Source: Dermatophagoides farinae
Taxonomy: Eukaryota > Arthropoda > Arachnida > Sarcoptiformes > Pyroglyphidae
DNA: 64,000 bases
Direction: 5' to 3'
Assembly: GCF_024713945.1 (NCBI RefSeq)
Contig: NC_134683.1
Span: 870,501-934,500 of the forward strand
In this document: in pieces, positions 33,406 through 60,003 of the stretch
Layout: each line of letters starts with the position of its first letter
How positions within the stretch are numbered: the first letter of the stretch is position 1
Notes under the pieces: generated by a model
The model's database searches: none
The model's input: only the letters and a program-made list of their open reading frames with translations
Told to the model about the DNA's origin: nothing
Made by a program: the position numbers and the translations under genes

Positions 33406-34255
33406 ATTTTGAAAATTTTTGAATCACATACACAAACACAAAAACAAATAGGTCGTCGACAATATGATATTAATTCATTTTTTCATTTTCATTTTTCATT
33501 TTTTTTTGTGAAAAATATGAATTTTTTTTTTTTACTTCATTCCTTTCATTCGACTCGAATGTTTGTCATTGTACAATTGAAACATTGAAATGAATAGCAA
33601 GAAAAAAAAATGATTGAATATCATGAGATAATGGCCAGCAGAAACTACTCTGTAAAGGTGGTTTTTTTTTATCATGCTCCAGTGAATATTTGATTGCTTT
33701 TTTCTTCATAAACAGCAGCAGCAGCACCACTGGAAACGGAAACATTATCGGAAATGAGCTTTGACGTTTTATTTAGTGAATTGATCTCTGAAATAATGAG
33801 ACCAAAAAAAAAAAAAAAAACAAGAAAGAATGAAAATAAAACAAAACAAAAAAATTCAAGGCCATATTCATTCAGAAAAAAAATTTCATTTCATTTTTAC
33901 CAATTTTTTTTGTTCAACAAATCTGTTGCTTTTTTTTGATTTTTTTTTTTTTGGATTACCACATTACAACATATATTGAAAAGAAGCCGTGTGTGTGTGT
34001 GTGTGTATTTCTTTGTTGATTGTTGAACAATTTATCTTCATGGACCGGAAAGAAATCTTTGAAATATATCCATTATTATCAATTATTATTGGTTGTGTGT
34101 TTGTTTTTCAAGATTTTTTTTTCGAATGAATGAATGTATTACATTGTGTATACAGGTATGACTTGTGGGACCATACATTGAGTAGGTAAATAAATTTTTT
34201 TTTTTCAATCAAAAAAGGAAATAATAGTTTGTTTATATTGTGTATATAAATTAAA
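33406..34255. other. Spacer between P450 genes
   Basis: Low-complexity A+T-rich sequence with a GT tract at about 33990-34007. No gene or clear promoter motif was seen. Confidence 0.5.
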
Positions 34256-36198
34256 TCATTTAAATTGTTTCAAATTATTATCTCTTCGAATGAATCGAAT
34301 ATTAACCGATGATTTTGGTCGTAAAATTAATGCTGCATTTATGGCAACATCGGCCACATTTTCACCGGATTCAACACGATATTTGGATAATAATGTGGCC
34401 AACATAATTTTCTCTTCTTGCAATGCAAATTTTTGTCCAATACAATTACGTGGACCAGCTGAAAATGGTACATAAGAAAATGGATTAACACGGCCACAAT
34501 AATGTTCAGAACCTTCAACAAAACGATCCGGTATATAACGTTCTGGTTGTTGAAAATATTTTGGATCTCTTTGTATGAAATATAAAAGCAATATAACCGG
34601 AATACCTTTCGGTATGATACAACCAGGTTCAATTTCAGTATCTTCATGTGTATGCCGTGAAATGAATGGTACGGATGGATATAATCTTAATGATTCTTTG
34701 ATACAAGCTTCCAAAAATTTCATTTGTCGTAATTGATTGGATGTCCAATTCGAATTGTTTTCATCATCATCGTCGAAAGATTGTTGTCGAATTTCATCAA
34801 TTTCTTTGTGTACACGATTCTGAATATCGGGATAATTTCCCAATAAATGTAATGTCCAAATCAATGACATTGCCGTCGTATCATGACCTTCAAACATGAA
34901 TGTATCCACTTCTTCACGAATATCCGATTCAGTAAATTTATCTGGATCATTTAAATGTTGTTCAATCAATAGATCCATGAATGCTAAACGACGATTTCGA
35001 TGATGGCCATCATCACCATTAATAACAACACCATTATTTTCATTGGCTTCAATTCTACGATCAATCATTGCTTTTTTTCTTTCCTGTATAACTTTCATTG
35101 TTAATTGATGTACCATGGCAATATCTTTACGATTTTTACGACCTTCAGCAAAAAAATTGAAGAATATAAAATCAATTTGAAGCCATGGAAATATGATACG
35201 TTTCATTAGGGCTGTTGAAACTCTAGTTTTTTTTGAATGAATGAATGAATAAACGACAATGATCAATAAGTTTTTGTACCCGAAACACAAAAAAAACAAA
35301 ATGTGAATAAAACATGACAATACCTGGTTACTGCATCGACATATTCACGATTTTTATTCAATTGTGATTGAATTTTTACACCCATTGCTGTTTCCGATAT
35401 AACATCCAACGTTGCATTAGTCATCAATGGTACAATGTTTAGAAATTTTTCATCACCATCAGTATGTTGTTGTTTTTGTTCAATAACATTCGAAAGAATT
35501 TGTGCCTGTTCATTCATGACGGTTATAAATTGTTCCAAAATATTAAAATGAAATGTTGGTGTCAATAGTTTTCGTCGATGACGCCATTTATTACCACCAC
35601 TAACTAAAAGACCTTCATTTAACCATGGTTTCATCATACGATAATGATGATCTTTATCCAAAAATGTATGATTACTGGATAGAATTTTCTATAATGTAGA
35701 AAAATTCAAAACAATGTATTGAAATCCAACAAAAAAAAAAAACATTGAAATTATATCACTATTTTGACTTACTTCGGCAGAATCGGCACGATGAACAACA
35801 ATCAATGGTTTCAATGATAACCATAAACGAAAAGTATTGTCGAATATTTTCACACCAGCACCAAGAAATTCCAGATAAACTATATAAAATGCAAAAAAAC
35901 GGGGTAACAACAACAACAACAACAACAAAAATTATTACATATGCTACTTACTGTCAAACAATGTATCGATTTTAAATTGATTCCAACCAAGTAGACTAAA
36001 ATTGCCAAGAAAAAATAACCATGGTATTGTCGGTATGCCAGGTATGTTGTTAATTTTTTCTACATTATCGATCCATTTTTTTATAAATCGAAATAAAATG
36101 ATTGAAAACCATGTGAATAATGATAAAATTATGCCATAACGTATTAAAAATGGTATGATGTTGTTATTATTATTATTATTACTAATGTATTCAAACAT
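34256..36198 (-). CDS. Cytochrome P450, CYP4-type, array copy B
   Basis: Four exons (35952-36198, 35773-35879, 35324-35688, 34256-35222; phases 1, 0 and 2) give about 561 residues. An Asn-rich start and a membrane anchor (IIPFLIRYGIILSLFTW) lead into the P450 fold. Helix C is KWRHRRKLLTP, the I helix is EEVDTFMFEGHDTT (near 351), ExxR is ESLRLYPSVP, the PERF-type box is PERYIPDRF and the heme loop is [14 protein letters not shown]. All signature residues are present, so it looks functional. The four-exon plan is the one shared by every later copy to the right. Decayed pieces of an exon 1 like this one occur at 50773-50861 and 53261-53350. Confidence 0.92.
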
Positions 36199-36946
36199 AT
36201 TATTATTATTATTATTATGTTTGCATATGTGTTATGTTATGTTCAATAATCGATAGATGTGAAATGAATTTTTCGATTTTTTCTTTCTTTTAATATATAT
36301 GAAGATTCATTTTCTTTTTTATAATAAATGCACGCGTGTGTGTGTGTGTGATATGTTTTTTTTTCATCTTCTTTTGATCGATAAATGATGATAATAATAT
36401 ATTTCTGCTGTGTTTTTTTTTCTTTCTTGGCAAACGAACATCATTTCTTTCTTTCTTTCTTTCTTGGTTTTTCTGAAAAGCGATTACACATCTACCATTT
36501 TCATTTTCATTTTCATTTGATAAGATATTCGAAAAAAAAACAACAACATCTGATTTGGAATTATTTATTTTTTTTTTTTGTTCACATAATAATGATAACC
36601 ATAGTGAATGGTTTCTTTTTTTTTGGCATCAATTAATCATTCATTCAAAATGGAAAAAAATCATCATCATTGATCACAAGATCGAAAATCATTTATCGTT
36701 ATCATCATTGAATGTCCCCATAATGGTGTTGAATGAAAATAAACAAAGTGAAAAAAAAAATTTCAACTAAAGAAACAAAAAAATGAGAATAAATCACTGA
36801 TTTCGGGTACAAATGATCAACAATGTACAAAAGATACCATTCAAAATGTGTGAGAATTTTTGATTGTTTTATTTTAATTTTGTAATCAATTTTTGTTTTT
36901 ATATTTTCAGTCATATATGAAAAAACCAAAAAACATTATTTTGCTC
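36199..36946. other. Spacer between P450 copies B and C
   Basis: This spacer contains the presumed promoter of copy B. A stretch near 36388-36440 (gataataatatatttctgctg, then cgaacatcat) recurs in decayed form near 50925-50970 and 54285-54300, so it was copied with exon 1 of a B-like gene. The rest is poly-T and TTTC repeats. Confidence 0.5.
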
Positions 36947-38829
36947 TCATGTATGGTAATGACTATGACGATATATGAAATGAATATTAACCGATGATTT
37001 TGGTCTTAATATTAATGCTGCATTAAGTGCAATGTTGCCAATCAAATCACCAGATATGATTTTATAATTAGATAATAATGTGGCCAACACGATTTTCTCC
37101 TCTTGCAATGCAAATTTCTGTCCAATACAATTACGTGGTCCGGCTGAAAATGGTACAAAAGCAAATGGATTCATACGGCCACAATAATGTTCAGAATCTT
37201 CGATAAAACGGTCCGGTATGTAGCGTTCTGGTTGTTGGAAATATTTTTGATCTCTTTGAATTTTATATAGTACTAGGGCAACAGACGTTCCTTTTGGTAT
37301 AATAAGACCGGGTTCAATTTCCATATCTTTATGGGTGTAACGTGTAATCATTGGAACTGATGGATATAATCGTAATGATTCTTTTATACAGGCTTCCAGA
37401 AATTTCATCTGTCGTAATTGATCCATTGACCAATTGATTGTAGAAAATTCTTGATCATCAAAAGATTGTTGCCGTATTTCGTCAATTTCTTTATGTACAC
37501 GATCCTGAATATCCGGATGATTGCCGATCAAATGTAATGTCCATATCAATGACATTGCCGTTGTATCATGGCCTTCAAACATGAATGTATCCACTTCTTC
37601 ACGAATATTCGATTCGGTAAATTGTTTTGGATCTTTCAAATGTTGCTCGATCAATAGATCCATGAATGCTAAACGACGACGACGATGATGACCATGTTGA
37701 TGATCTAAATCATTTGAATCGTTAATTTCATTTTCTTCTCTTTTTTTCTTCTGGCTAAGAATTTCATTTTTACGTTCTTTAATCACATTCATTGTGAATT
37801 GATGAACCAGATTAATATCTTGACGATGTTGACGTCCTTCAGTGAATAGATTGAAATAGATAAAATTGTATCGTAGCCAAGGTAGTATCATTCGTTTCAA
37901 AACAGTAGCTGAAACTCTATATTGGATACGATAGGCATGAGTGAATGTGTCAAATAATAATAATAATAATGTGCAAAAAAAAATCAAACCTTGTAACTGT
38001 ATCGACATAATCACGATTCCTGTCAAGTTGTGAACCAATTTTCACACCCATTGCCGTTTCCGATATAACATCCAACGTGGCATTGGTCATCAATGGTACA
38101 ATATTCAGATAATTGTTCACCGATTTCATTTGATTATCTTTAATTATATTGGAAAGAATATTAGCCTGTTCATTCATAATCGGTAGAAATTGTTCCAATA
38201 TATTAAAATGAAATGTTGGTGTCAATAATTTTCGTCTTGAACGCCATTTATCCGATCCACTGGTCAACAGTCCTTCTTGTAGCCATGGTTTGAGCATTTC
38301 ATAATATTGATCTTTATCTAAAAATGTATTATTACTGGATAATACTTTCTACAACAACAACAACAACAAAATCAATCAATCAATCAATCAATTTGCAAAC
38401 AAACAAACAAACAAAAACTGACCTCAGCACAATCAGCCCGATGAATAATAATGGTTGGTACGAATGAAAACCATATTTTTGTTGTTGTATGATTGAAAAG
38501 TTCGGTGAAACTAAGAACGATTCGAAAATATGCTAAATGAAGTTAAAGTTAAAAAAAGAAGATTAATATGAAACAAAACAAAAAACCAAAAATTTACCAT
38601 CTACCAATGTTTCTTTTGTTGAATTTTTAATAAGAATCAAATACAAATGTCCAAGAGTTATTTGCCACAATGGAAATGTTACACCATCAAATTTATCGAT
38701 AAATGATTTCAATTTGAACCATTCGAATATGAATCGTATTAAACGAATGAATAAAATGATGATCATTATGGAAATGATTCCATAACGAAGAAAATTTGTC
38801 ACCATTGAATGATTGAAATAATTTGACAT
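36947..38829 (-). CDS. Cytochrome P450, CYP4-type, array copy C
   Basis: Four exons (38598-38829, 38423-38532, 37990-38348, 36947-37916) give about 556 residues in the shared phase pattern 1, 0 and 2. The anchor is LRYGIISIMIIILFIRLIRF. Signatures are intact: [44 protein letters not shown] and [14 protein letters not shown]. Exon 2 ends at GAG|GTCAGT, a weaker donor than the GTAAGT used by its neighbours. The linker after the I-helix approach carries a Lys/Glu and His/Arg-rich insert (HHRRRRLAFMD). It is diverged from copies D-J throughout and probably separated from them before their amplification. Confidence 0.91.
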
Positions 38830-39410
38830 AATTTTTTATTTTCTATTTTCTATTTACACACAAAACGATGTTGTTGTTGTGTGTGCATTTGTTTATTTGG
38901 TTGTGAATTTGAAAATGATCTAATTCGATTGCGTTGAAGTTTTTTGTTTGTTTGTTTTGGCTTTATAGCCAAAAAAAAATGGCCAACGAAGATATGGTTG
39001 TAATTTGTTTTCATTTATTTTCGATAACTATAACTATATGAAAAAAGTCTATGACCGAGAAAAAGTTGTTTTAATATTTGGCGTTCTATTTATTTAAATT
39101 TTGATGATGATACAATTAATGTTGATTGTGTCAATAATAAATGGAAATGATGATGATTATCGTTTTTTAATGGGCTTTTTTTTGTTTCATTTTACAGTGA
39201 CAACCAATAGAAGTCTTGTGATTTATCATTTGATTTATATATGAAAAATGTGTGAGATGGTGGATGATATATAAAAAAAGGATTCATCTCTTTCTGTTTG
39301 GTTTTGATTTTGATTTTGATTTGATTTGAATTGAATGTTTGTTTATTTATTTATGTAGACATAATGTTGATAATTTCAAAGTTTGATTAAAAATTGATAA
39401 ATAAAAAAAA
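38830..39410. other. Spacer between P450 copies C and D
   Basis: A+T-rich sequence without a recognisable gene. It should hold the copy C promoter and the 3' end of copy D. Confidence 0.5.
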
Positions 39411-41251
39411 TTATATACGTTCTATAAAACGAACATTGACCGATAATTTTGGCCTTAAAATTAATGCCACTTTTTTATGAACATTACCAAGATAATCACC
39501 GGATTCAACACGATATCGAGACAATAAAGTGGCCAACATGATTTTCTCTTCTTGTAGAGCAAATTTCTGTCCAATACAATTACGTGGACCGGCTGAAAAT
39601 GGTACAAAAGCAAATGGATTCATACGGCCACAATAATGTTCAGAATCTTCGATAAAACGATCCGGTATATAGCGTTCTGGTTGTGGAAAATATTTTGTAT
39701 CTCTTTGTATCATATAAAGTACGAGCATAATTGACGTTCCTTTTGGTATGATACGACCGGGTTCTATTTCCGTATCTTGATGTGTATAACGTGATATTAT
39801 CGGTACCGATGGAAATAATCGCAGTGATTCTTTGATACAGGCTTCTAGAAATTTCATCTGTCTTAATTGATTTTGAGACCAATTTTGTGTTTCATTATCA
39901 TCAAATTGTTGCCGTATTTCGTCAATTTCTTTATGTATACGATCCTGAATGTCCGGATGATTGCCGATCAAATGTAATGTCCATATCAATGACATTGCCG
40001 TCGTATCATGACCTTCAAACATGAATGTATCCACTTCTTCACGAATATCCGATTCGGTAAAGTGTTTCGGATCTTTCAAGTGTTGCTCAATCAATAGATC
40101 CATGAATGCTAAACGACGACCATTTTCATTTGCATTAAGATTCTTTTGGTTGACAATTTCGTTTTTACGTTCTTTTATAACATTCATTGTAAATTGACGA
40201 ACTAGATTAATATCATGACGATGTTCACGTCCATCGGCGAAAAAGTTTAAATAAAAGAAATTATTTTGAAGCCATGGCAATAACATTCGTTTCACAGCAG
40301 TAGATGAAACTCTGAAAATTAGATGAAATCAATTATGATGGGAAAAAAGTCCAATCATGATCACTAACCTTGTAACTGCATCCACATAATCACGATTCTT
40401 ATCGAGTTGTGAACCAATTTTCACACCCATTGCAGTTTCCGAGATAACATCCAACGTTGCATTCGTAATTAGTGGCACAATATCTAGATAACCATTACCA
40501 CCTGCTTTCAGCTGACGATCATTGATTATACGGGAAAGAATTTGAGCCTGTTCATTCATGATGGGTAAGAATTGTTTCAAAATATTAAAATGAAATGTTG
40601 GTGTCAATAATTTTCGTCGTGAACGCCATTTATCCGATGCACTGGTCAACAGTCCTTCATTCAGCCATGGTTTAAGCATTTCGTAAAAATTATCTTTATC
40701 TAAAAATGTATTATTGCTGGATAATATTTTCTAAATACGGAAACAATAAATTTCGATTACTATTTCCACACAAAAATCCACAATCTATACTTACTTCAGC
40801 AACATCGGCATGACTAATAATTATAGCTGGAATGAATGAAAACCAAATACGAGATGTTTCACCAAAAATTTTGGACATTCCCGTCAATAATTGAAAAGCG
40901 TCTACATTTATACATTGATAAATTGGTTACAAATAAATAAATAAAAAAACATTCAACTAGAAAAAAAAACTTACTATCAACAATTGTTTCTGCTGTCCAA
41001 CTATGACCCAATAAAATATTAATATTTCCAATTGGAATTCTCCAAAATGGAACATTTATACCAGAAAATTTATTAATCATCAATTTGGATCTTGACCATT
41101 GATGAATTTTTCTCAACAAACGTATGATAAGTAATGAAACAATAATGGATATGATTCCATAACGTATGAATAGGAGAGTAATTTGACGAAAAAATAATGA
41201 AACATTTGGTTCATCTGTTGTTGGTAACGTTGTCAATGTTGTCGTAGCCAT
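39411..41251 (-). CDS. Cytochrome P450, CYP4-type, array copy D
   Basis: Four exons (40975-41251, 40795-40901, 40369-40730, 39411-40311) give about 548 residues. The start is the ATG at 41251 (MATTTLTTLPTT); the frame extends upstream only through a GTG. After a Thr-rich leader comes the anchor FIRYGIISIIVSLLIIRLL. Signatures: [44 protein letters not shown] and [14 protein letters not shown]. It shares with copies F, G, H and J the 107-base exon 2 and 362-base exon 3, the latter almost the same in sequence. A conserved TATA-like element lies 64 bases upstream. It appears functional and belongs to the recently amplified subgroup. Confidence 0.92.
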
Positions 41252-43790: not shown

Positions 43791-46700
43791 ATGTCGAACA
43801 TACAACGTTGTGATCAGCCAATCTCTCTTTGTTGGAAAAATTTACGCTATGAAGTCGACGAATGGTGTATGATCGACGGTTGGAAACCTAGACGTCAACG
43901 AAAAGTGATTCTTAACCGTCTTAATGGTTCAGTGCGGTTGAATAGTCTGAATGCATTGCTCGGACCATCTGGTGCCGGCAAAACTTCGCTGATCAATTGT
44001 CTCACCGGCAATGTTCCAGCCAAGAACATTTCGTCCGACACAGAAATTTATATCAACAGTGAGGTAATCACAAAGTCATCGAATTCATTGGTCAGTTTTG
44101 TGCCACAATTCGTCCATGAGATTATTTTGGGACGTTTCACAGTGCTCGAGACTTTGTATTATGCATTCTGCTTCAAGAATCTTGCTCACAGTCATGGCCG
44201 AGCATATCAACACATCCAGTCAACGATCCAAGAATTGATGTTGAATCCGAAAGTGTTGCAAACACGTTTCGAAAATTGCTCTGGCGGCGAACAACGTCGA
44301 GTGGCCATCGCTCAAGAGCTGATGTCAATCGAATCGAAACCACCGTTTTTGTTTGTCGATGAGCCGACCACCGGTTTGGACAGTGAGTCAGCATTAGTGG
44401 TAATGAAATGTCTACACAGATTGTCCAGGCAGAATGGCATCACAGTCATTGTGTCAATTCATGCTCCTAGTTCGGACATATTGAATATGTTCGATCAATT
44501 GTACATCATAGCCAAGGGAGGTGTTTGTGTTTATTCTGATCAACCGGATCGATTACGACCACATTTGAATCGAATCACAGGAATCGCATTGAATGAGGAC
44601 GATTCGCCAATTCAAGAATATCTTCGCATCGCTAGCAACGGCATTGATGATGAACAAGTGAAGAAGTTGACTCAAGAAAGTGTTCAACAAGACCATCGAC
44701 GACTGACATCTCATATCAACAAATTAAACGAAAACGAATGCCCATTCCAATCGATTCCAAACGGTATTCCTCATTATTCCAAAAAATTTCGCTTTTTTGA
44801 TCTTTGGACACAATTCAAACGTCTACTGTGTTTAACATTCATTGCCGATGTAAGAATCCTGATTGGTGTTTTCGTCATAACCGCTTTCAATATAATTTTA
44901 TTTACATCATTCACCAATAATGATATGTTGATGCCTGGCGGATGTTTGCCGTTCGATATAGAACATTACAATCAAACTTGTCAGGATAAATTGAAAGATG
45001 ATCGATTAATTGGGACATTTATCATGTTTTTAACGTTTATAATGATTCTTATATTAGCACTCAGTATAGGAATGAATTCTTTGATTGCTGTCAATTCTAT
45101 GAAAGTTCTTCGCCATGAATATCGCAATGGTAAGACCATGTGGCATCAAACAATCAATGAAGAAAAATATTCTCTAATTTCAATTATTTACTTCCAGGTT
45201 GGTACAGTTATGCTTCATTGATTTATCCAGTTCATGTGAATGACATGATCACTTCGTTTTTCATCGTTTTAATATGCGCCATAACTTTGTTTATAACTAG
45301 CGGTATCATCTATGTTGATCAATATCAAATTAATTGGCATCGTTTGGCAATTTTAATTTTATTTATTTACCTCATATTTTTGTACGGTCAATCATTTGGT
45401 TACTTGGTTCTGGCAATTTGTATTGATCAACTTGAATTACTTCTACTATTATGTCAAGTGATACTTATCATATCTACTATAACTAATGGATTAGTGGTGT
45501 CGATTGATATAATGGACAAACCATTTTATTTGGCTATTTCTCATATAATTGGTACTCGATATTTAATGGAAGGAATCATTTATGTATTCTTTGGTATTGA
45601 TCGTTGTGATCCTCAAACAGAATATTCAAAGATCTTGAAACAATTTTTTATCGACCCAGACAATGTCTATTGGAATCTAATGTATCCTATTTATGTTTCA
45701 ATAGTGATTCGAATCATATCTGTCGTTGTGATGCGTTGGACCTTTAGAAATGTGAACGATTTAAAAATCATATCGGAAAAGAAAATGGAAACCTTGGCTA
45801 GAATCCTAAGTCCATCATGTGAAATTGATTTTCATGAAAAGCCTACTTCTGCCCAGATGATCGACAGTAATAATAATTTTAAAGTTGATTTGCCAAACGA
45901 AAATGAATTTCAAAAATTTTGTAATGGCCGTTTTATTATCGGATGGCGTCACTTGACATTGTTCGCTACCGATACCATTTATGAGGTGAGTCCGACACCT
46001 GAATCACTGGATGAATTTGGAGATAAGTTAATACTGCGGAATCTCAGTGGACAATTTCAGTTTGGAACATTGAATGCAATCATGGGCAGCTCCGGTTCGG
46101 GCAAAACGTCGCTATTGAAAGTTTTCAATGGGAAAATGAAAACGAAACTGACCGGTTCGACACAATTCTATCTCAGTCGTTTCGTACCAATTCGTACTTG
46201 CTATATCAACCAAGAAGTGTCAAATCACCTGATACCTGGTTTGACGAGCAAACAAAGTTTGGTTTATGCTTCTAAATTGAAGAATTGTCACAAAACAAAA
46301 ACAATTGATCATGAACAAGTGGCAGCCAAACTTCTTGGTGAATTAGACATGGTCAACACGGCCAACAACATGGTACAGAATTGCTCGGGTGGAGAAAGGA
46401 AGCGACTTGCTCTGGCGATGGAACTGACATCAGTTCGAATGCCCAATCTGATCTGTATTGATGAACCAGTCAGTGGGCTGGATTCCAATTCTGCACGGTT
46501 GGTCCTTCAATGTCTTCGACGATTCATTGCTCGACATCCGGACATCACTATGGTGGTCAGCATTCACCAACCTAGTACCGAACAGTTGGACATGTTTGAC
46601 CTGTGCTATGTGCTTGCATTCGATGGTCTGGGTATCTACTCGGGACCTCCAGCTCGAATCAAAAGCTTTCTCAGTGAGGCATCTTCCATCGATGATGATA

Positions 46701-47894
46701 AACGATTTCCAATCGAATCTCTAATTCGATATTCTTGTACTGGTCACTTGAATCCCATCGTACAGCGATTAGCTGTAGAAACCGATAATCAAATCCATAA
46801 AATCACACCGTCGTTGTTACAGGATACTGTTAATATAAAGGATGGTGTATCATTTCCTCAAATTCGGTTCTCATTGCGATCGGTAGCCATTTTATTCCGT
46901 CGTTTAGCTCACTGTTCATTTGGATATCAATGGCCATTATGGCTAGCCTACACATTCATGTACATTTTTCTGGCTAGTGTATTTAGAAGCTTTTACGATT
47001 TAACAATTACCGAAGTTGATGGTTGTATATCCATTGAGGATGATTTCCTAAACTACTGTACAAATGTTACCGATCAAATATGGAAAGAACAATTACGTCT
47101 TGCCAATAATGTAAATTATGTCATCTTTTCAAGTATCGCATTCGTTTTCATAATTGACATACAAATGATCAACTTGTTCACGTTAGAATTGAAATTTTTT
47201 TCAACTCAACATTTAAATGGTTTGTTTTTTTTTTTTTGTTTTTTCTTATACTAATTTTCTTCAATTTGAAGGTTGGTACACTTGTGGTGCATATTATCTC
47301 TCGAAATTGTTGTTCGATGCTATCACTATTCTACCGATGGTCATATTGTTTGTTTGTATAACCAATATCTATTCACCGGTTTCGCCTAACAATTACTTCA
47401 TCTGGCAAGTGTTTAATTTATATTTATCATCATTTTCAATTATGGCCATAATGAACATAAGCATAGTGTTACTACGTAAATCAATCATCGCCTTATTTAT
47501 TGTGGTAGGATTTTCACAAGGTTTTTTTCTATTATTATCCAGTATTTACAATGTAATTGAAGAAAAGAATTTTATTGTACGTTTTCTATCAAATTTTTCA
47601 TTTTATCGTTATCAATTTCCATCAACATTATTGCTTATATATGGTGGTGATCGTTGTCGTCCATATGAAATACAATCATTGTTATATATGTTGAACGTGC
47701 CAACAAATGATGAATATTTCTATGAATGTATGGTGAAACTAGTTTTATTGGCCATATTTTATCACACAATTGCATTGATTGTCTTCTGTATTAAATACAA
47801 TCCATTAATCAATCGACATGAACGTGCCGAACGAATTGAACGTTTTCGTAATGAACGTTTAATTAAATCTTACAAATTCAATAGTTATTTTTGA
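43791..47894 (+). CDS. Full-size ABCG-type ABC transporter (two half-transporters fused)
   Basis: Three exons (43791-45129, 45198-47219, 47272-47894) give about 1327 residues in the order NBD1-TMD1-NBD2-TMD2. NBD1: Walker A GPSGAGKTS (from residue 58), signature NCSGGEQRR, Walker B FLFVDEPTTGLD and H-loop VSIHAPSS. NBD2: Walker A GSSGSGKTS (near 742), signature NCSGGERKR, Walker B LICIDEPVSGLD and VSIHQPST. Both sites look able to bind and hydrolyse ATP. Nucleotide-binding domain first and the NG-WY motif in each TMD mark the ABCG/White class, which in animals is normally a half-transporter of 600-700 residues. Both introns split the same Gly codon of that NGWY motif (G|GT-TGG-TAC, phase 1). 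The gene lies on the opposite strand inside the P450 array. Lipid or xenobiotic export is likely; the substrate is unknown. Confidence 0.9.
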
Positions 47895-48139: not shown

Positions 48140-50000
48140 TTATATACGTTGTATGAAACGAATATTGACTGATGATTTTGGTTTTAAAACTAATGCCGCT
48201 TTCATATTAACATTACCAAGATAATCACCGGATTCAACACGATATCGAGACAATAAAGTGGCCAACGTGATTTTCTCTTCTTGTAGTGCAAATTTTTGTC
48301 CAATACAATTACGTGGCCCGGCTGAAAATGGTAGATAAGCAAATGGATTCATACGGCCACAATAATGTTCAGAACCTTCGATAAAACGATCCGGTATGTA
48401 GCGTTCTGGTTGTGGGAAATATTTTGGATCTCTTTGTATCATATAAATTACGAGTATAATTGACGTTCCTCTTGGTATGATACGACCGGGCTCTATTTCC
48501 GTGTCTTGTTGTGTGTAACGTGCTATTGCCGGCCCCGATGGATAAATTCGTAAAGATTCTTTGATACAGGCATCCAGAAATTTCATTTGTCTTAATTGAT
48601 TTTGAGACCAATTCTGCGTTGTTTGATCATAATCATCAGATTGTTGCCGTATTTCGTCGATTTCTTTATGTATACGATCCTGAATGTCAGGATGATTGCC
48701 GAGCAAATGTAATGTCCATATCAATGACACTGCCGTCGTGTCATGACCTGCAACCATGAATGTATCCACTTCTTCACGAATATCCAATTCGGTGAATTGT
48801 TTCGGATCTTTCAAATGTTGCTCGATCAATAGATCCATGAATGCTAAACGACGACCATTTTCATTCACATTCAAATTAAGATTCTTTTGGCTAAGAATTT
48901 TGTTTTTACGTTCTTTAATAACATTCATTGTGAATTCGCGAATTAGTTTAATATCACAACGATGTTCACGTCCTTCGGCCAAAAAATTAAAATAAATGAA
49001 ATTATTTTGAAGCCATGGCAATAACATTCGTTTCATAATTGTAGCCATAGTTCTGAAATTTGGATGAATTTAATTATGACAGCAAAAAAGTTCAACCATG
49101 ATCACTAACCTTGCAACTGCATCCACATAATCACGATTTTTATCGAGTTGTGAACCAATTTTCACACCCATTGCGGTTTCCGAGATAACATCCAACGTTG
49201 CATTCGTTATTAGTGGCACAATATCTAGATAACCATTACCACCAGCTTTCAGTTGACGATCATTGATTATACGAGAAAGAATTTGTGCCTGTTCATTCAT
49301 GATGGGTAAGAATTGTTCCAAAATATTAAAATGAAATGTTGGTGTCAATAATTTTCGTCGTGAACGCCATTTATCCGATGAACTGGTCAACAGTCCTTCA
49401 TTCAGCCATGGTTTAAGCATTTCGTAAAAACAATTTTTATCTATAAAGGTATCAGTGCTGGATAAAATTTTCTAAATGCGAAAAAAAAATTTTCGATTAC
49501 TATTTCCACACAAAAACACAAAAATTCGCAATATACTTACTTCAGCATCATCGGCATGACTAATAATTATAGCTGGAATGAATGAAAACCATACATGTGA
49601 TATTCCGCTAAAAATTTTGGACATTCCCGTAATCAATTTAAAATAATCTAGATGATTTTTTAATAAATGAAAAGTGAATTTGTCATAAATTAAAAAAATT
49701 TTTTTTTTTACTCTCTAAAAATGTTTCTGTTGCCAAACTTCCAATGAATAATATATCAATATTTCCAATTGGAATTTTCCAAAATGGAACATTTATGCCA
49801 GGAAATTTACAAATCATCGATCTTGATCGTAACCATCGCTGAATTATCCTTATTGAACGTAGCAAAAGTAATAAAACAATAATGGATATGATTCCATAAC
49901 GTATGAATAGAAGAATTATCTGATGAGCGAATGTTTCAATATTCGTTCCATTTGTCACCGTTGTTGTTGTTGTTGTTGTTGTCATCGTGGCCATCATCAT
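48140..50000 (-). CDS. Cytochrome P450, CYP4-type, array copy F
   Basis: Four exons (49712-50000, 49541-49647, 49110-49471, 48140-49052) give about 556 residues. A Met/Ala/Thr-rich leader precedes the anchor LFIRYGIISIIVLLLLL. Signatures: KWRSRRKLLTP, EEVDTFMVAGHDTTAVS (VA in place of FE before GHDTT), [23 protein letters not shown] and [14 protein letters not shown]. The K-helix region (YPSGPAIARYTQQD) is the most changed of all copies, in a part that shapes the substrate pocket in P450s (family knowledge). Exon 1 ends in A|GTAAAAAA, a poorer donor than GTAAGT. Exon 4 starts at a shifted homologous acceptor reading T-MATIMKRM. It appears functional. Confidence 0.92.
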
Positions 50001-50047
50001 TGGTTTTAACCAAACAAAAAAAATGAAATCGATTCAAATTAGATTCA

Positions 50048-50059
50048 CCCATTTATATA
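50048..50059 (-). promoter_or_regulatory. TATA-like element of P450 copy F
   Basis: TATATAAATGGG on the minus strand, 48 bases upstream of the ATG; the same element occurs in four sister genes. Confidence 0.6.
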
Positions 50060-50150
50060 TTTTACAATATATTAAATATTAACCAATCAAAAAAAAACTT
50101 TTATCATCACTTCATCACACTGGTAAACATTATATTCAAAAATTTTTCTG

Positions 50151-50430
50151 TGTTGATTCCCATGAATAATGTATTAGTAATAATGATTTTATTTTATTCG
50201 GAAAAAACTCTAGAACCAAGAAAATACCAGAGAGGTACTGAAGACAATGTATTAGCAAAGCGACAATTCCATGGAATTTTTTTGTTGTTGATTTTTTTTA
50301 CACAGAAAAAAATTTAAAATAGCAACCATCATGTGATTTTATCATCATCATCATCATATGATTTAAAATTGGAAATGTATTCACCATTTTAAATTGAATT
50401 AAGATAAACAATAGTTGGTGAAATGAAGGG
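50151..50430. repeat. Duplicated P450 flank, copy 1 (partner 53511-53784)
   Basis: About 280 bases running from tgttgattcccatgaataatg through cggaaaaa-ctctagaacca and the ttgttgttgattttttttac stretch to agttggtgaaat are repeated in the same orientation at 53511-53784 with scattered differences. A more decayed third form is at about 56400-56570. The unit is 5'-flank plus 3'-flank of array P450s. Confidence 0.8.
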
Positions 50431-50450
50431 ATTATATTCTTTTTATAGTT

Positions 50451-50537
50451 ACTGCCCTTTGCATATTAACATTATCAAGATAATGACCGGTATTCAACAC
50501 TATATCAAGACAATAAAGTGGCAAGCATTATTTTGTT
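50451..50537 (-). pseudogene. P450 scrap: decayed end of exon 4
   Basis: The bases gcatattaacattatcaaga, a tattcaacac core and caataaagtggcaagcatta match the C-terminal coding part of array P450s (the region of [19 protein letters not shown]) with small insertions and changes. It then runs into sequence shared with 53.1 kb. It has no heme loop and no open frame. Confidence 0.7.
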
Positions 50538-50772
50538 CGACTTGTTTTATTCATTATATGAACACATATATTTGCGAAATAAAAAATTTCAGAATGCTTA
50601 AGTGCATTATTATTTATTTTTTTTCTCTTTAATTTTATTATTATCATCTTGATGTTTTAAATTTCATTTTCAAGGTTTTCGATAAATTCGAGTTTTTTCT
50701 ATGATTTTTTTTCTGATGTTGGCTATCAAAATTTTTTCAATTGGTTTGGCAATTAATCATTTGGTTTTTTTT

Positions 50773-50861
50773 CATAAATCGATATAAAATGATTGAACAA
50801 CACGTGATTAATGATAAAATCATGCCATAACCTATTAAAAATGGTATGAATGATGTTATTA
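50773..50861 (-). pseudogene. P450 scrap: decayed exon 1 of a copy-B-like gene
   Basis: The stretch aaatcgatataaaatgattg through catgccataacctattaaaa to atgttatta matches exon 1 of copy B (membrane anchor FLIRYGIILSLF, near 36085-36165) much better than exon 1 of copies D-J. Downstream bases to about 50970 match the copy B upstream region. Only the anchor exon is left. Confidence 0.65.
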
Positions 50862-51082
50862 TCTAACGGGTGGGGGGTCAGATGTGTGTGCGTGTATTTT
50901 TCCTTTTTTCTATCAACAAATGATGATAATATTTCTACTGTTTTTTTTTCTCAGCAAACGAACATCATAGATCCGGACTTACTAAATTAAACGTTACAAC
51001 AAAGAATAAGCAGGAGTTGGTGGAATAAAAGAATTTATTATACCTTTTTTTAATTTTAATTTTGGTTTGATTAGATTAAAAA

Positions 51083-52927
51083 TTATGTACGTTGTATGAA
51101 ACGAATATTGACTGATGATTTTGGTTTTAAAACTATTGCCGCTTTCATATTAACATTACCAAGATAATCACCGGATTCTACACGATATTGAGACAATAAA
51201 GTGGCCAATATGATTTTTTCCTCTTGTAATGCAAATTTCTGTCCAATACAATTACGTGGCCCGGCTGAAAATGGTAGATAAGCAAATGGATTCATACGGC
51301 CACAATAATGTTCAGAACCTTCGATAAAACGATCCGGTATGTAGCGTTCTGGTTGTTGGAAATATTTTGGATCTCTTTGTATCATATAAAGTACGAGGGC
51401 GACAGACGTTCCTTTTGGTATGATACGACCGTGTTCTATTTTCGTGTCTTGATGTGTGTAACGTGATATTACCGGTACCGATGGAAATAATCGCAGTGAT
51501 TCTTTGATACATGCCTCCAGAAATTTTATCTGTCTTAATTGATTTTGAGACCAATTTTGTGTTGTTTGATCATCATCATCATCAGATTGTTGCCGTATTT
51601 CGTCGATTTCTTTATGTACACGATACTGAATGTCAGGATGATTGCCGAGCAAATGTAATGTCCATATCAATGACACTGCCGTCGTGTCATGACCTGCAAC
51701 CATGAATGTATCCACTTCTTCACGAATATCCGATTCGGTAAAATGTTTCGGATCTTTCAAGTGTTGCTCGATCAATAGATCCATGAATGCTAAACGACGA
51801 CCATTTTCATTCGCATTCAAATCAAGATTCTTTTGGTTGACAATTTCGTTTTTACGTTCTTTAATAACATTCAATGTAAATTCACGAACTAGATTAATAT
51901 CACGACGATGTTTACGTCCTTCGGCCAAAAAATTAAAATAAATGAAATTATTTTGAAGCCATGGCAATAACATTCGTTTCAAAGTTGTAGCTGAAACTCT
52001 GAAAATTTTGACGTATTTAATTATGACATGAATAAAAATTCACCCATGATCACTAACCTTGTAACTGCATCCACATAATCACGATTCTTATCGAGTTGTG
52101 AACCAATTTTCACACCCATTGCGGTTTCCGAGATAACATCCAATGTTGCATTCGTTATTAGTGGCACAATATCTACATAACCATTTTCACCTGCTTTCAG
52201 CTGACGATCATTGATTATACGAGAAAGAATTTGTGCCTGTTCATTCATGATAGGTAAGAATTGTTTCAAAATATTAAAATGAAACGTTGGTGTCAATAAT
52301 TTTCGTCGTGAACGCCATTTATCCGATGAACTGGTCAATAGTCCTTCATTCAGCCATGGTTTATGCATTTCATAAAAATTATCTTTATCTAAAAATGTAT
52401 CATTGCTGGATAATATTTTCTAAACGAGAAAAAAAATTTGATTACTATTTCCACACAAAAACACAAAACTTACTTCAGCATCATTGGCATGACTAATAAT
52501 CACAGTTGGAAAAATTGAAAGCCAAACATGAAATGTTTCACCAAAAACTTTGGACATTCCCGTGATTAATTGAAAATAATCTAGATGATTTTTAATAAAT
52601 GAAAAGTGAATTTGTCATTAATTTATAAAGCAAAATTTTTTTTTTTTTTTTACCATCAACAATTGTTTCTGTTGTCCAACTTTCAATGAATAACATGTCA
52701 ATGTTTCCAATTGGAATTTTCCAAAATGGAACATTGATTCCATGAAATTTACTAATCATCGATTTTGATCGTAACCATCGTTGAATTATTCTTATTGAAC
52801 GTAGCAAAAGTAATGAAACAATAATGGATATGATTCCATAACGTATGAATAGAAGAATTATTTGATGAACGAATGTTTCAATATTCGTTCCATTTGTCAC
52901 TGTTGTTGTTGTCGTGGCCATCGTCAT
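51083..52927 (-). CDS. Cytochrome P450, CYP4-type, array copy G
   Basis: Four exons (52654-52927, 52474-52580, 52058-52419, 51083-51998) give about 552 residues. Leader MTMATTTTTVTNGTN, anchor LFIRYGIISIIVSLLLL. Signatures: [47 protein letters not shown] and [14 protein letters not shown]. The VAGHDTT variant is shared with copy F only, while exon 3 is nearly the same as in D, F, H and J. An Asp run (QQSDDDDDQTTQ) between the I and J helices varies in length among copies and is coded by a GAT microsatellite. The gene looks functional. Confidence 0.93.
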
Positions 52928-52974
52928 TGGTTTTAACCCAAGAAAAAAAAATGAAATCGAATCAAATCATATAG

Positions 52975-52986
52975 CCCATTTATATA
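52975..52986 (-). promoter_or_regulatory. TATA-like element of P450 copy G
   Basis: TATATAAATGGG on the minus strand, 48 bases upstream of the ATG; conserved among the five recent copies. Confidence 0.6.
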
Positions 52987-53260
52987 TTATATAATAAATA
53001 TTAGTTAGTCAAAACGTTTTCCCTACCACGATTATGATGATAAAATGTACCAATACCAATTACCAATTTTTATTCAATGTGTGAATGATGATTTTGTTCG
53101 ATTTGTTTTATTTATTATGAACGCATATATTTGTGAAATATAAAATTTCAGCGAACTTAACCGCATTAATTTTTTTTTTAAATTTAATTTTCAAGATTCT
53201 TGAGAAATTCGTGTTTTTTTCTGTGATGTTGGTTATCACATAATCGATAATTTTTTTGAA

Positions 53261-53350
53261 ATATAAATCGATATAAAATGATTAAAAACCATTTGAATAA
53301 TCACAAAATTATGCCATAACGTATCAAAAACGGTATGATGTTGTTATTAC
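53261..53350 (-). pseudogene. P450 scrap: second decayed exon 1 of a copy-B-like gene
   Basis: The bases tataaatcgatataaaatga through attatgccataacgtatcaa to cggtatgatgttgttatta are closer to copy B exon 1 (36085-36165) than the scrap at 50773 is. The preceding sequence (53085-53240) is shared with 50535-50740, so both scraps come from one duplicated block. No further P450 exon follows. Confidence 0.7.
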
Positions 53351-53375
53351 TATAATTGAATATTACAAACAAATT

Positions 53376-53512
53376 ATGTACGTATTTCAAATTTGATCGA
53401 CGTTGACATCGAGAATTTTATTTTCATTTTCATTTTCGTTCATTATCAATATACATTAGATGCAAATGATTGTTTGTCAATTGACAAAGCCAAGCATTTT
53501 GTTTTGCAAATG
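53376..53512. repeat. Repeat of the 41551-41689 flank
   Basis: This stretch runs from the attatgtacgtatttcaaat end through gatcgacgttgacatcgaga to ccaagcattttgttttgcaa. It repeats the spacer right of copy D in the same orientation, about 11.8 kb away, with a short TTTTCA expansion. Confidence 0.75.
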
Positions 53513-53784
53513 TATTGATTCGCATGAATAATGTATTAGTAATAATGATTTTATTCGGAAAAACCTCTAGAACCAGGAAAATACAATAAAGGTACTGAAG
53601 ATAATGTATTAGCAAAACGACAATTCTATGGAATTTTTTTTGTTGTTGATTTTTTTTACACAGAAAAAAAATTAAAAATAGTAATCATCATGTGATTTTA
53701 TCATCACCATCATCAAATGATTTAAAATTGGAAATGTATTCACCATTTTAAATTGAATAAAAATAAACAGTAGTTGGTGAAATT
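53511..53784. repeat. Duplicated P450 flank, copy 2 (partner 50151-50430)
   Basis: Same-orientation repeat of 50151-50430, ending at the inverted-repeat junction with the chemoreceptor scrap. Confidence 0.8.
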
Positions 53785-53814
53785 GTGTTAATTTCCACCA
53801 ACTACTGTTTATTT
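53761..53814. repeat. Inverted repeat at a rearrangement junction
   Basis: The arm aaataaacagtagttggtga (53761-53784) and its reverse complement (53790-53814, with one extra base) flank a 5-base loop, gtgtt. The left arm is the normal end of the P450 3'-flank repeat. The right arm is its mirror copy and abuts the truncated chemoreceptor scrap. Confidence 0.8.
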
Positions 53815-54178
53815 TTCTTTTGATCAGAAAATGTTTATAGAAATTTTTAACCAAAAAGACAATAATAATCAAATCGATCAATCCAATAACACGACAAATA
53901 CGACATTGTTGATGTTGATTATATGACAATTTCGTTGATGCGGTCACCAAATTGAATTTGTATTCCATGCCGCATCGATTATAATCATATTTTTGTTTAC
54001 AAATTCTTTGTTCAGCGTACATTTTGAAATATTTTTTCAGATAATTCATTCGACCACATTTCATGAATGGAAAAATAATTTCTGCCAATTCTTTAAATAC
54101 ATCTATAATCGATAAAATAATGTTACGATAAATGAATACCATGTTGATGATTAAATCAATGATTATCAAAATCCCCAT
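53815..54178 (-). pseudogene. N-terminal scrap of a gustatory-receptor-like gene
   Basis: On the minus strand from an ATG at 54178, about 120 codons are open. They match the start of the receptor at 60004: GRMNYLKKYFKMYAEQRICK against DGLNYMKRYFDMYNDPQRQCK, then HQQCRICRVIGLIDLIIIVF against HEKCSICQVVSFIELILLIC. The similarity ends near residue 120, where the inverted repeat begins, and the rest of the seven-helix protein is missing. This shows that the receptor family once had a member inside the P450 array, in the opposite orientation to the complete gene. Confidence 0.8.
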
Positions 54179-54409
54179 TATTGTAGAAATATTGTTCTAA
54201 TCGCTTTAATAATAAATGCAATATGATTATGATTAAAGTTTTGTTTTTAACATTTAATAATATTTTTCCATTTTTTTTCTCTCAGTAAACGAACATCATA
54301 GATCCGGACTTACTAAACTAAACGTTACAACAAAGAATAAATAAAAATTGGTGGAATAAAAATATTTATCTTTTTTTTAATTTTAATTTTGGTTTGATTA
54401 GTTTAAAAA

Positions 54410-56258
54410 TTATGTACGTCGTATGAAACGAATATTGACTGATGATTTTGGTTTTAAAATTATTATCGCTTTTTTATGAACATTACCAAGATAATCACCG
54501 GATTCAACACGATATCGAGACAATAAAGTGGCAAGCATTATTTTTTCCTCTTGTAGAGCAAATTTTTGTCCAATACAATTACGTGGCCCGGCTGAAAATG
54601 GTAGATAAGCAAATGGATTCATACGGCCACAATAATGTTCAGAACCTTCGATAAAACGATCCGGTATGTAGCGTTCTGGTTGTTGGAAATATTTTGGATC
54701 CCTTTGAATCATATAAAGTACGATAGCGACAGACGTTCCTTTTGGTATGATACGACCAGGTTCTATTTCCGCATCTTGATGTGTGTAACGTGATATGACC
54801 GGTACCGATGGATAAATTCTCAATGATTCTTTGATACAGGCTTCCAGAAATTTCATCCGTCTCAATTGATTTTGAGACCAATTTTGTGTTGTTTGATCAT
54901 TATCATCATCAGATTGTTGCCGTATTTCGTCAATTTCTTTATGTACACGATACTGAATGTCCGGATGATTGCCGAGCAAATGTAATGTCCATATCAATGA
55001 CATTGCCGTGGCATCATGACCTGCAAGCATAAATGTATCCACTTCTTCACGAATATCCGATTCGGTAAAGTGTTTCGGATCTTTCAAGTGTTGCTCGATC
55101 AATAGATCCATGAATGCTAAACGATGACCATTTTCATTCGCATTCAAATCAAGATTCTTTTGGTTGACAATTTCGTTTTTACGTTCTTTAATAACATTCA
55201 TTGTGAATTCACGAACTAGATTAATATCATGACGATGATCACGTCCTTGGGAGAAAAAATTAAAATAAATGAAATTATTTTGAAGCCAGGGCGATAACAT
55301 TCTTTTCATAACTGTAGATGAAACTCTGAAAATTGGATGAATTTAACTATGATAGCAAAAAAAGTTCAACCATGATCACTAACCTTGTAACTGCATCCAC
55401 ATAATCACGATTCTTTTCGAGTTGTGAACCAATTTTCACTCCCATTGCAGTTTCCGAGATAACATCCAATGTTGCATTCGTTATTAATGGTACAATATCT
55501 AGATAACCATTACCACCTGCTTTCAGTTGACGATCATTGATTATATGGGAAAGAATTTGTGCCTGTTCATTCATAATGGGTAAGAATTGTTTCAAAATAT
55601 TAAAATGAAATGTTGGTGTCAATAATTTTCGTCGTGAACGCCATTTATCCGATGAACTGGTCAATAGTCCTTCATTCAGCCATGGTTTAAGCATTTCATA
55701 ATATTGATCTTTATCTAAAAATGTATCAGTGCTGGATAATATTTTCTAAATGCGAAAACAAAAATTTTCGATTACTATTTCCACACAAAAATACACAATC
55801 TATACTTACTTCAGCAACATCGGCATGACTAATAATCATAGTTGGAAACAATGAAAGCCAAATATGAGATGTTTCACCAAAAAGTTTGGACATTCCCGTC
55901 ATCACTTTAAAATAATCTAGATGATTTTTAATAAATGAAAAGTGAATTTGTCATAAATTAAACAAAAAAAAATTTTTTTGTTACTATCAACAATTGTTTC
56001 TGTTGTCCAACTTTCAATGAATAACATGTCAATGTTTCCAATTGGAATTTTCCAAAATGGAACATTTATGCCCGAAAATTTACAAATCATCGATCTTGAT
56101 CTTAACCATCGCTGCATTATTCTCATTGAACGTAGCAAAAGAAATGAAAAAATAATGGATATGATTCCATAACGTATAAATAGAAGAATTATTTGATGAA
56201 CGAATGTTTCAACATTCGTTCCATTTGTCGCCGTTGTTGTCGTCGTGGCCATCATCAT
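54410..56258 (-). CDS. Cytochrome P450, CYP4-type, array copy H, altered I helix
   Basis: Four exons (55985-56258, 55810-55916, 55384-55745, 54410-55325) give about 552 residues. Leader [15 protein letters not shown] and anchor LFIRYGIISIIFSFLLL. Helix C (KWRSRRKLLTP), ExxR (ESLRIYPSVP), PERYIPDRF and the heme loop are normal. The I-helix motif is LAGHDATAMS: the Thr after the Asp (the alcohol of the acid-alcohol pair that delivers protons to bound oxygen in most P450s) is Ala, codon GCC. The frame is otherwise intact, so the protein may be made but poorly coupled, or use a substrate that supplies the proton. Exon 3 is the shared near-uniform version. Confidence 0.92.
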
Positions 56259-56309
56259 TGGTTTTAACCAAACAAAAAAAAATGAAATCGAATCAAATCA
56301 TATCAATCA

Positions 56310-56321
56310 CCCATTTATATA
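56310..56321 (-). promoter_or_regulatory. TATA-like element of P450 copy H
   Basis: TATATAAATGGG on the minus strand, 52 bases upstream of the ATG. Confidence 0.6.
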
Positions 56322-56608
56322 TTGGATATTAATCAATAAAAAAAGATGTTTTCATCATCACTTCAATTCCCTTGTTATTATTATATTCAAATGTTTGTGT
56401 GTTGATGTCCAAGCATAATGCATTAGTAAAACGATAATTCCATAAAATGTTGTTGTTTTTAAGACAGAAAAAAAATTAAAAATAGTAATTATCATGTGTT
56501 TTATCATTATTTGATTCTGATTTCAAATATAACTTAAATAAAGATAAACAGAAGTTGGTGAAATAAAGGGATTAATCTTTTTTTATTTTCGCTTGATTTG
56601 ATTAAAAA

Positions 56609-56917
56609 TTATATACGTTCTATAAAACAAACATTGACCGATAATTTTGGCCTTAAAATTTATGCCACTTTTTTATGAACATTACCATCATAATTACCGG
56701 ATTCAACATGATATATCGAGACAATAAAGTGGCAAGCATTATTTTTTTCCTCTTGTAATGCGAATTTCTGGCCAATACAATTACGTGGACCGGCTGAAAA
56801 TGGTACAAAAGCAAATGGATTCATACGGCCACAATAATGTTCAGAACCTTCGATAAAACGATCCGGTATGTAGCGTTCTGGTTGTTGAAAATATTTTGGA
56901 TCTCTTTGAATCATATT
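56609..56917 (-). pseudogene. P450 fragment I: decayed end of exon 4
   Basis: This fragment matches the last 100 codons of array P450s from MIQRDPKYF through [14 protein letters not shown] to RFIERI. It differs from live copies by a reading-frame disturbance after QEEK, a stop in place of Leu in the V-A-L-I-L-R-P-K region, and altered residues near RYRVESG. Its terminal codons (RPKLSVNV, FIERI) are closest to copy D. Together with its 3' flank it repeats the adjacent end of copy J, from about 56530-56920 against 56930-57330, as a partial tandem duplication. Confidence 0.85.
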
Positions 56918-57033
56918 GATTTGATTTAAAATTGAAAATGTAATCATCATTTTAAGTTGAATAAAGATAAGCAGTAGTTGCTGAAATGAAGGGATTAATC
57001 TTTTTTTTTATTTTCGCTTGATTAGATTAAAAA

Positions 57034-58901
57034 TTATATACGTTGTATGAAACGAATATTGACTGATGATTTTGGCCTTAAAATTAATGCCGCTTTTACA
57101 TCGACATTACCACAATTATCGCCGGATTCAACACGATATCGAGACAATAAAGTGGCCAACATGATTTTCTCTTCTTGTAGTGCAAATTTTTGTCCAATGC
57201 AATTACGTGGCCCAGCTGAAAATGGTACATAAGCAAATGGATTCATACGGCCACAATAATGTTCAGAATCTTCGATAAAACGACCCGGTATGTAGCGTTC
57301 TGGTTGTTGGAAATATTTTGGATCCCTTTGTATCATATAAAGTACGAGAGCGACGGACGTTCCTTTTGGTATGATACGACCGGGTTCTATTTCCGTATCT
57401 TGATGTGTATAACGTGATATTACTGGTACCGATGGATAAATTCGTAACGATTCTTTGATACAGGCCTCCAGAAATTTCATCTGTCTTAATTGATTTTGAG
57501 ACCAATTCTGTGTTGTTTGGTCATCATCATCATCAGATTGTTGCCGTATTTCGTCAATTTCTTTATGTACACGATTCTGAATGTCCGGATGATTGCCGAG
57601 CAAATGTAATGTCCATATCAATGACATTGCCGTCGTATCATGGCCTTCAAACATGAATGTATCCACTTCTTCACGAATATCCAATTCGGTAAATTGTTTT
57701 GGATCTTTCAAATGTTGCTCGATCAATAGATCCATGAATGCTAAACGACGACCATTTTCATTCGCATTCAAATCAAGATTCTTTTGGTTGACAATTTCGT
57801 TTTTACGTTCTTTAATAACATTCATTGTGAATTCACGAACTAGATTAATATCACGACGATGTTTACGTCCTTCGGCCAAAAAATTAAAATAAATGAAATT
57901 ATTTTGAAGCCATGGCAATAACATTCGTTTCAAAGTTGTAGCTGAAACTCTGAAAATTGGACGTATTTATGATGGGAAAAAAGCTCATCCATGATCACTA
58001 ACCTTGTAACTGCATCCACATAATCACGATTGTTATCGAGTTGTGAACCAATTTTCACACCCATTGCGGTTTCCGAGATAACATCCAACGTTGCATTCGT
58101 TATTAGTGGCACAATATCTAGATAACCATTACCACCAGCTTTCAGTTGACGATCGTTGATTATACGAGAAAGAATTTGTGCCTGTTCATTCATGATGGGT
58201 AAGAATTGTTCCAAAATATTAAAATGAAATGTTGGTGTCAATAATTTTCGTCGTGAACGCCATTTATTCGATGCACTGGTCAACAGTCCTTCATTCAACC
58301 ATGGTTTAAGCATTTCATAAAAATTATCTTTATCTAAAAATGTATTAGTGCTGGATAATATTTTCTGAATGCGAAAAAAAATTTACGGTTACTATTTCCA
58401 CACAAAAATCCACAATCTATACTTACTTCAGCAACATCAGCATGACTAATAACCATAGTTGGAAACAATGAAAACCAAATATGAGATGTTTCACCAAAAA
58501 TTTTGGACATTCCGGTCATCAATTTAAAATAATCTAGATGATTTTTTTTAATAAATAAAAAGTGAATTTGTCATTAATTTATAAAACAAAAAATTTTTTT
58601 TTTTTTTACTATCAACAATTTTTTCTGTTGCCCAACTTTCAATGAATAACATGTCAATATTTCCAATCAGAATTTTCCAAAATGGAACATTGATTCCATG
58701 AAATTTACTAATCATCGATTTTGATCGTAACCATCGTTGAATTATTCTTATTGAACGTAGCAAAAGTAATGAAACAATAATGGATATGATTCCATAACGT
58801 ATAAATAGAAGTATTATTTGATGAACGAATGTTTCAACATTCGTTCCATTTGTCGCCGTTGTTGTTGTTGTTGTTGTCGTCGTCGTCGTGACCATCGTCA
58901 T
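57034..58901 (-). CDS. Cytochrome P450, CYP4-type, array copy J
   Basis: Four exons (58610-58901, 58427-58533, 58003-58364, 57034-57949) give about 558 residues. The ATG at 58901 (MTMVTTTT) is used; the frame upstream reaches only a TTG. The Thr run of the leader is longer than in sister copies. Signatures: the helix-C box with Asn for Asp (NKWRSRRKLLTP), EEVDTFMFEGHDTTAMS, ESLRIYPSVP, PERYIPGRF (Gly where others have Asp) and [14 protein letters not shown]. It looks functional. It is the rightmost member of the array in the window. Confidence 0.92.
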
Positions 58902-59519: not shown

Positions 59520-59962
59520 CATTTAATCATCATAGACATTAAATAACACAATTATCCACCGTGAAAGAAATTCATTTTTCAAATATGAATAAATTGATTA
59601 TTACGACCAGGTCAGCTTTTTTTTCGTTCAATAATTCTAATCGAAAAAAAAACTAGAACTGTTTGTGTGTGTGTGTGTGTGAGGTTAAATTCATATCCCG
59701 GGAAAAGGATAAATTTTTTCATCAGTCCCTGATGATTATTTTACATTTTACATTTGATATATCGTTAGCAACAAAAATTCCAATGATTCTTGATGAATTC
59801 CTTGTGTACATAAATTTTTTTTTTGTTGTTTTGCGTCAATAATTCTGTGAAGAAAACTGGCTATTTTTTTCGCCTTTTAGTGGATTTTTTTTTCGTTTCC
59901 AAGTATTTAAGATTAATTAAGTAAAATTTTTTTTTTTTTTTTTTTTTTTGATTCATCTAACG
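59520..59962. repeat. Upstream region of the receptor gene, duplicated at 61853-62013 plus 63600-63929
   Basis: This block includes gtgaaagaaattcat, gattattacgaccaggtcag, a GT tract (59664-59682), aaaattccaatgattcttga, gcgtcaataattctgtgaag, aactggctatttttttcgcc and gattcatctaacg. All of these recur in the same order right of the receptor gene, where they are split by a LINE in the GT tract. It probably holds the receptor promoter. Confidence 0.85.
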
Positions 59963-60003
59963 AATACTTGTGTTTACAAGAAATTTTCTTTCCAGTCATA
60001 ACA

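Follow-up and report, generated by a model that had tools for sequence, protein, structure and literature searches.

A full-size ABCG-type transporter gene in a mite genome, probably derived from an animal half-transporter gene by internal duplication and fusion

Introduction

The arrangement of two ABCG halves in one protein is credited by surveys to fungi, plants and protists, not to animals. The fungal PDR transporters, represented by CDR1 and Pdr5 (profile TIGR00956), carry NBD-TMD-NBD-TMD on a single chain, whereas animal ABCG transporters such as human ABCG1 (profile TIGR00955) are half-size proteins that act as dimers. In the portions of the literature drawn on here, metazoan ABCGs are reported as half transporters only (PMC3724490), and a survey of 79 eukaryotes lists the full ABCG structure as lost in metazoa (PMC4649718). 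A further excerpt describes most metazoan ABCGs as half transporters and mentions in one sentence, in passing and perhaps by mistake, that an oyster and a shrimp have full transporters (PMC4247197). The original prediction for the locus studied here started from the premise that animal ABCGs are usually half-transporters.

Arachnids are described, in the part of the source cited, as having few ABCGs, with the spider mite as an outlier (PMC8290562). In Tetranychus urticae, ABCG genes have undergone a lineage-specific multiplication, partly in tandem, which resembles the one described below; in contrast to the present genes, its 23 ABCG genes are reported as half transporters in the extract used, a comparison made by description only (PMC3724490). 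In Psoroptes ovis, two genes annotated as 'ABC transporter G family member 20' are listed as having raised expression in resistant mites (PMC12364353). Among the matches listed in the open-licence literature, full-size ABCGs were not described for any mite, and single genes of this type may already stand in mite databases.

Results

The plus strand of the window, the whole 64-kb stretch of DNA that was analysed, contains at 43791..47894 a gene that departs from the printed description of animal ABCGs in having two NBDs and two TMDs in one frame, instead of one of each. Splicing and translation resulted in three exons from start to stop codon, with a joined length of 3,984 nt corresponding to 1,327 codons plus the stop and no internal stops. 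The original prediction of NBD-TMD-NBD-TMD in one frame of about 1327 residues was thus exact (1,327 aa after splicing). Exon 1 (43791..45129) encodes NBD1, an ABC_tran match at aa 41-194 (43911..44372), and the initial helices of TMD1. This domain comprises six hydrophobic segments identified by hydropathy (aa 342-629, 44814..45745), with an ABC2_membrane match above cut-off at aa 399-578, and is split by intron 1. Exon 2 (45198..47219) is a single open frame running through the remainder of TMD1, the linker joining the halves (aa 636-705, 45764..45973), NBD2 (ABC_tran match at aa 726-871, 46034..46471) and the initial helices of TMD2. For TMD2 (46930..47810, with the start placed by eye), hydropathy revealed about five clear hydrophobic segments and a weak first one; it is split by intron 2, and exon 3 (47272..47894) contains its remainder and the stop codon.

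Intron 1 (45130..45197, 68 nt) and intron 2 (47220..47271, 52 nt) both show GT..AG borders and phase 1. Each of them interrupts a Gly codon between its first and second bases, Gly 447 in the NGWYS motif starting at aa 446 and Gly 1121 in the NGWYT motif starting at aa 1120, as had been proposed when both introns were placed in the same NGWY codon of the respective TMD. A purpose-written spliced protein-to-DNA aligner returned the identical two introns. Since the aligner recovers the same introns and the other modelled loci share the arrangement (see below), the architecture of the gene goes beyond chance.

Profile searches gave ABC_tran scores of 64.9 and 58.8 bits for the N and C halves, respectively (cut-off 25), and ABC2_membrane (PF01061) scores of 34.5 bits for the N half and 22.7 for the C half, the latter under the cut-off of 26.9. 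Pfam and hydropathy indicate that the NBD precedes the TMD in each half, the reverse order typical of ABCG proteins. Between the two halves, identity is 26% across an alignment of 562 positions (BLASTP E 2e-47); both halves retain the Walker A, signature, Walker B and H-loop motifs, in agreement with the prediction of intact ATP sites in each. An Rfam scan of the 64-kb window gave no match above thresholds.

Comparison of the whole protein with subfamily models resulted in 329.9 bits for TIGR00955 (white/pigment-precursor), the top of the models listed, and 190.3 bits for the PDR model TIGR00956, with the respective curated cut-offs of 736 and 1959 not reached; the protein was left unassigned to the TIGR00955 subfamily, its score being under the curated cut-off. 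The separate halves scored 179.7 and 162.3 bits with TIGR00955, and neither half alone reached E 1e-30 with TIGR00956. In a search of solved structures, human ABCG1 was the top match of both halves, above CDR1.

A search of the genome (62,435,336 bases, 62.4 Mb, in 22 contigs) with each half gave at least 76 matches for the N query and at least 72 for the C query, from which the best candidates were scored. This search revealed 29 clear loci, the window gene included, each with an N-type half upstream of a C-type half in the same orientation, and one doubtful locus, a divergent pair at C3:813458-817124; solitary N-type or C-type halves were absent from the scored matches for both queries. The idea of the window gene as a lone gene was ruled out by these loci. 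The existence of such a family of paralogues is a point absent from the original prediction. Identity to the window N half, taken piece by piece, was 75-92% for N halves at seven C9 loci and 35-66% for those of the other loci, and reached up to 27-37% for C halves, TMD pieces by themselves scoring lower. Six full-size paralogues lie head to tail on C3 at 5,613,732-5,643,738 with a spacing of about 5 kb, and four family copies are located on C9 at 2.008-2.040 Mb. The assignment of the genome to a mite is based on a single NPC2-type protein, ranked first among seven matches, whose nearest solved structures are mite group-2 allergens; it is close to Der p 2 and Der f 2 without being identical with either.

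Gene models were built for 28 of the 30 loci, leaving out C6:2531427-2534965 and the divergent pair on C3. Stop-free models spanning both halves were obtained for 22 of the 28, with lengths of 1,234 to 1,350 residues, and coverage was partial for B12, B18, B19 and B20. Stops were present in the models of A3 (C9:2022749-2026830, two), A7 (C9:2029197-2033282, one) and B18 (C6:2854447-2857909, one), which are either decaying copies or model errors; these three were excluded from the trees and contributed to the counts of introns, linkers and motifs. At locus A1 (C9:2034309-2039532), part of TMD1 is doubled in tandem as near-identical copies, the first of them broken by stops. The A1 model bridges this broken duplicate with a 1,149-nt gap, which is perhaps no real intron, and A1 was included in the quick trees and dN/dS estimates and excluded from the main mixture-model tree and the mixture-model NBD tree.

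Values of dN/dS between the window gene and five paralogues were 0.22-0.29 overall, 0.06-0.17 for the NBDs and 0.27-0.46 for the TMDs. Between closer pairs, constraint on the linker and on TMD1 is weaker than between the window gene and the five paralogues: values for linker and TMD1, based on few changes, were 1.10 and 0.65 for A5-A6 and 0.65 and 0.68 for B5-B15, respectively. The strong conservation of the NBDs together with the faster change of the TMDs fits substrate diversification, and the sequences suggest that both engines would be kept as the substrate path changes.

These models also bear on whether two adjacent half-transporter genes have been misread as one in this prediction made from genomic DNA. 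We consider this very improbable: exon 2 is one open frame leading from TMD1 through the linker to TMD2, all 28 modelled loci align across the linker (64-70 aligned residues), and the linker is under constraint in comparison with the five paralogues (dN/dS 0.26-0.39).

The phase-1 intron in the NGWY codon was found in 25 of 27 covered N halves, B1 and B12 being the exceptions, and in all 27 covered C halves; that of the B8 C half was read directly from the DNA rather than from the aligner. The presence of the twin introns in nearly all covered halves dates them to the common ancestor of the family. Five half-size genes read from this genome lack an intron in this codon, their sites having been read partly by eye. 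The NGWY-equivalent region is uninterrupted in L069 and read through in L074; L072 has a phase-0 intron slightly upstream, before EHSNKWY, and in L071 and L073 the intron, also phase 0, lies about 20 codons downstream. In addition, the top solved relative of L074 (C9:957400-959600) was plant ABCG25, with 242.6 bits vs 193.2 for human ABCG2.

Among these five genes, therefore, the intron site is special to the fused family, which argues for one intron copied along with the half gene; an intron-bearing half-size gene would have been the donor. The introns could alternatively have been gained in parallel at a conserved sequence resembling a splice site, and would then be uninformative on duplication, which may still hold. 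The NGWY codon does supply a G|G context in each half, and the absence of the intron from all five half-size genes is what this alternative would expect; it is nevertheless unlikely, given that codon and phase coincide in nearly all covered N and C halves and that nearby intron sites differ among the half-size genes. The original interpretation of the twin introns as relics of the duplication stands as regards their ancestry within the family and lacks, among the five genes sampled, a half-size gene bearing the intron.

The main mixture-model tree contained 12 N and 12 C halves, the five same-genome half-size genes, human ABCG1 and ABCG2 and Arabidopsis ABCG25, with few outside rows. In this tree the N, C and N+C clades were each supported at 100/100. 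The N+C clade joined the half-size hL069 and hL072 at 90/83, this group joined hL071 and hL073 at 99/97, and human ABCG1 came next at 100/99. The N and C subtrees showed mostly the same branching order, apart from weakly supported differences in the positions of B10 and B13, a pattern predicted by copying of the fused gene as a unit. The N+C grouping was also recovered by quick trees with 23 N and 24 C rows (1.0 for the whole alignment, 0.994 for the NBD and 1.0 for the TMD columns). Furthermore, AU tests rejected the placement of the N half (p 0.0007) or the C half (p 0.0001) with hL069, the one half-size gene tested in these single-half placements. Of everything scored in the genome search, hL069 and hL071 alone were half-size genes. 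The half-size sample of the trees consists of five genes, and a half-size sister closer to one half may exist among about 18 further ABC2_membrane places that lie outside the family and the trees, some of which may not be ABCG. Another locus, L070 (C5:4700300-4702900), had an ABCH- or ABCA-type look by eye and was kept out of the trees.

One old internal duplication and fusion followed by expansion is well supported by these data. The phylogeny originally suggested as a check, with both halves placed among ABCG halves, shows them clustering together among the half-size ABCGs of the genome; the nested N+C clade and the AU tests bear out duplication and fusion of a half-transporter gene, as an old event common to the approximately 30 loci and not private to the window gene. 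Half transporters are also known to work as pairs of different proteins, as in the heterodimer of ABCG5 and ABCG8, and the fused gene could derive from two half-transporter genes of such a pair that had already diverged, rather than from duplication soon followed by fusion. This has a low but real probability, in keeping with the long N and C stems, the 26% identity of the halves and the sparse sampling of half-size genes (five). It is countered by the single N+C clade at 100/100 and by the intron site that the halves share and the five half-size genes lack, the order of fusion and duplication being left undated.

With respect to the fungal PDR transporters, the ATP sites differ. Walker A GK[ST] was present in 25/25 covered N halves and 28/28 C halves, the DEP motif in 25/25 and 27/27, the H-loop histidine in 27/27 and 27/27, and the SGG signature in 25/25 and 27/28, the exception being CSDG. 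The family is thus canonical at both sites, whereas the N-terminal site of CDR1 is degenerate, with the Walker A lysine and the Walker B acid lost in the alignment. A mixture-model NBD tree with 10 N and 10 C rows placed both CDR1 halves outside the animal ABCG1-type group, with CDR1_N on a very long branch. In the quick NBD tree CDR1_N adjoined N+C at 0.955, a grouping undone under the mixture model, and an AU test in which all full-size halves and CDR1 were held as one clade gave a marginal p of 0.0495.

A full-size PDR-type gene acquired from a fungus, or retained from a eukaryote ancestor, would account for the shared domain order and is the reading that the quick NBD tree and the marginal AU result would favor. 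We regard it as hardly tenable in view of the TIGR00955 and TIGR00956 scores (330 vs 190 bits), the rank of ABCG1 above CDR1 for both halves, the position of CDR1 in the mixture-model tree, the spliceosomal, animal-type nature of the twin introns and the canonical ATP sites of both halves. Fungal PDR origin is disfavoured, and the original view against transfer from a fungus holds on the profile scores and the mixture-model NBD tree, although the AU test of a single clade of full-size halves is marginal. By sequence and by tree, the closest relatives of the family are the animal ABCG half transporters, with which it shares the NBD-first order, the ATP motifs and an NGWY-like motif in the second helix; unlike in those half-size proteins, both halves here are predicted to form one chain.

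Discussion

Altogether, we consider it probable that the window gene is a full-size ABCG gene of animal origin, generated by tandem duplication of a half-transporter gene, fusion and multiplication, and encoding a one-chain exporter with two canonical ATP sites. The ancestor would have been a gene for an ABCG half transporter whose NGWY codon, in the second membrane helix, was split by a phase-1 intron. This gene would have duplicated in tandem and its copies would have fused into one frame, a step to which the observed grouping of N and C halves as sisters and their common intron site point. The fused gene then multiplied whole to give the approximately 30 observed loci, partly in tandem. Domain order, motifs and helices suggest an ABCG dimer written as a single chain. 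By analogy with the known ABCG mechanism, the protein is most likely a one-chain dimer in which the NBDs would close on two ATP at a pair of canonical composite sites, and both TMDs would switch from inward- to outward-facing, exporting a hydrophobic substrate.

In a broader sense, we lean towards the view that a mite lineage re-evolved full-size ABCGs by internal duplication of a half transporter, with equal canonical ATP sites and about 30 paralogues whose membrane domains change fast, which would represent a second independent PDR-type architecture and an expanded efflux system. A fusion born within animals would serve as a natural replicate for the emergence of full-size ABC transporters, the duplication being still legible in the twin introns, and would allow one to ask whether one of the ATP sites is lost after fusion, as it was in fungi, or not. 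Since each fused gene carries two ABCG NBDs, counts of mite detoxification genes based on NBDs or exons would be wrong.

The plus-strand transporter gene is flanked by eight minus-strand P450 frames (PF00067), four upstream (31125-40328) and four downstream (48140-57966). This location inside a P450 array suggests a detoxification setting and lends slight weight to the guess that the protein might export xenobiotics or lipids. Other open frames of the window were recognized by eye: two overlapping membrane-like frames at 59917-61492 on the plus strand, perhaps a gustatory-receptor-type gene, whose sole Pfam match was under the cut-off; one at 21672-22979 on the plus strand resembling a mariner-type transposase; and one at 62178-63662 on the minus strand resembling the terminal part of a LINE-type reverse transcriptase.
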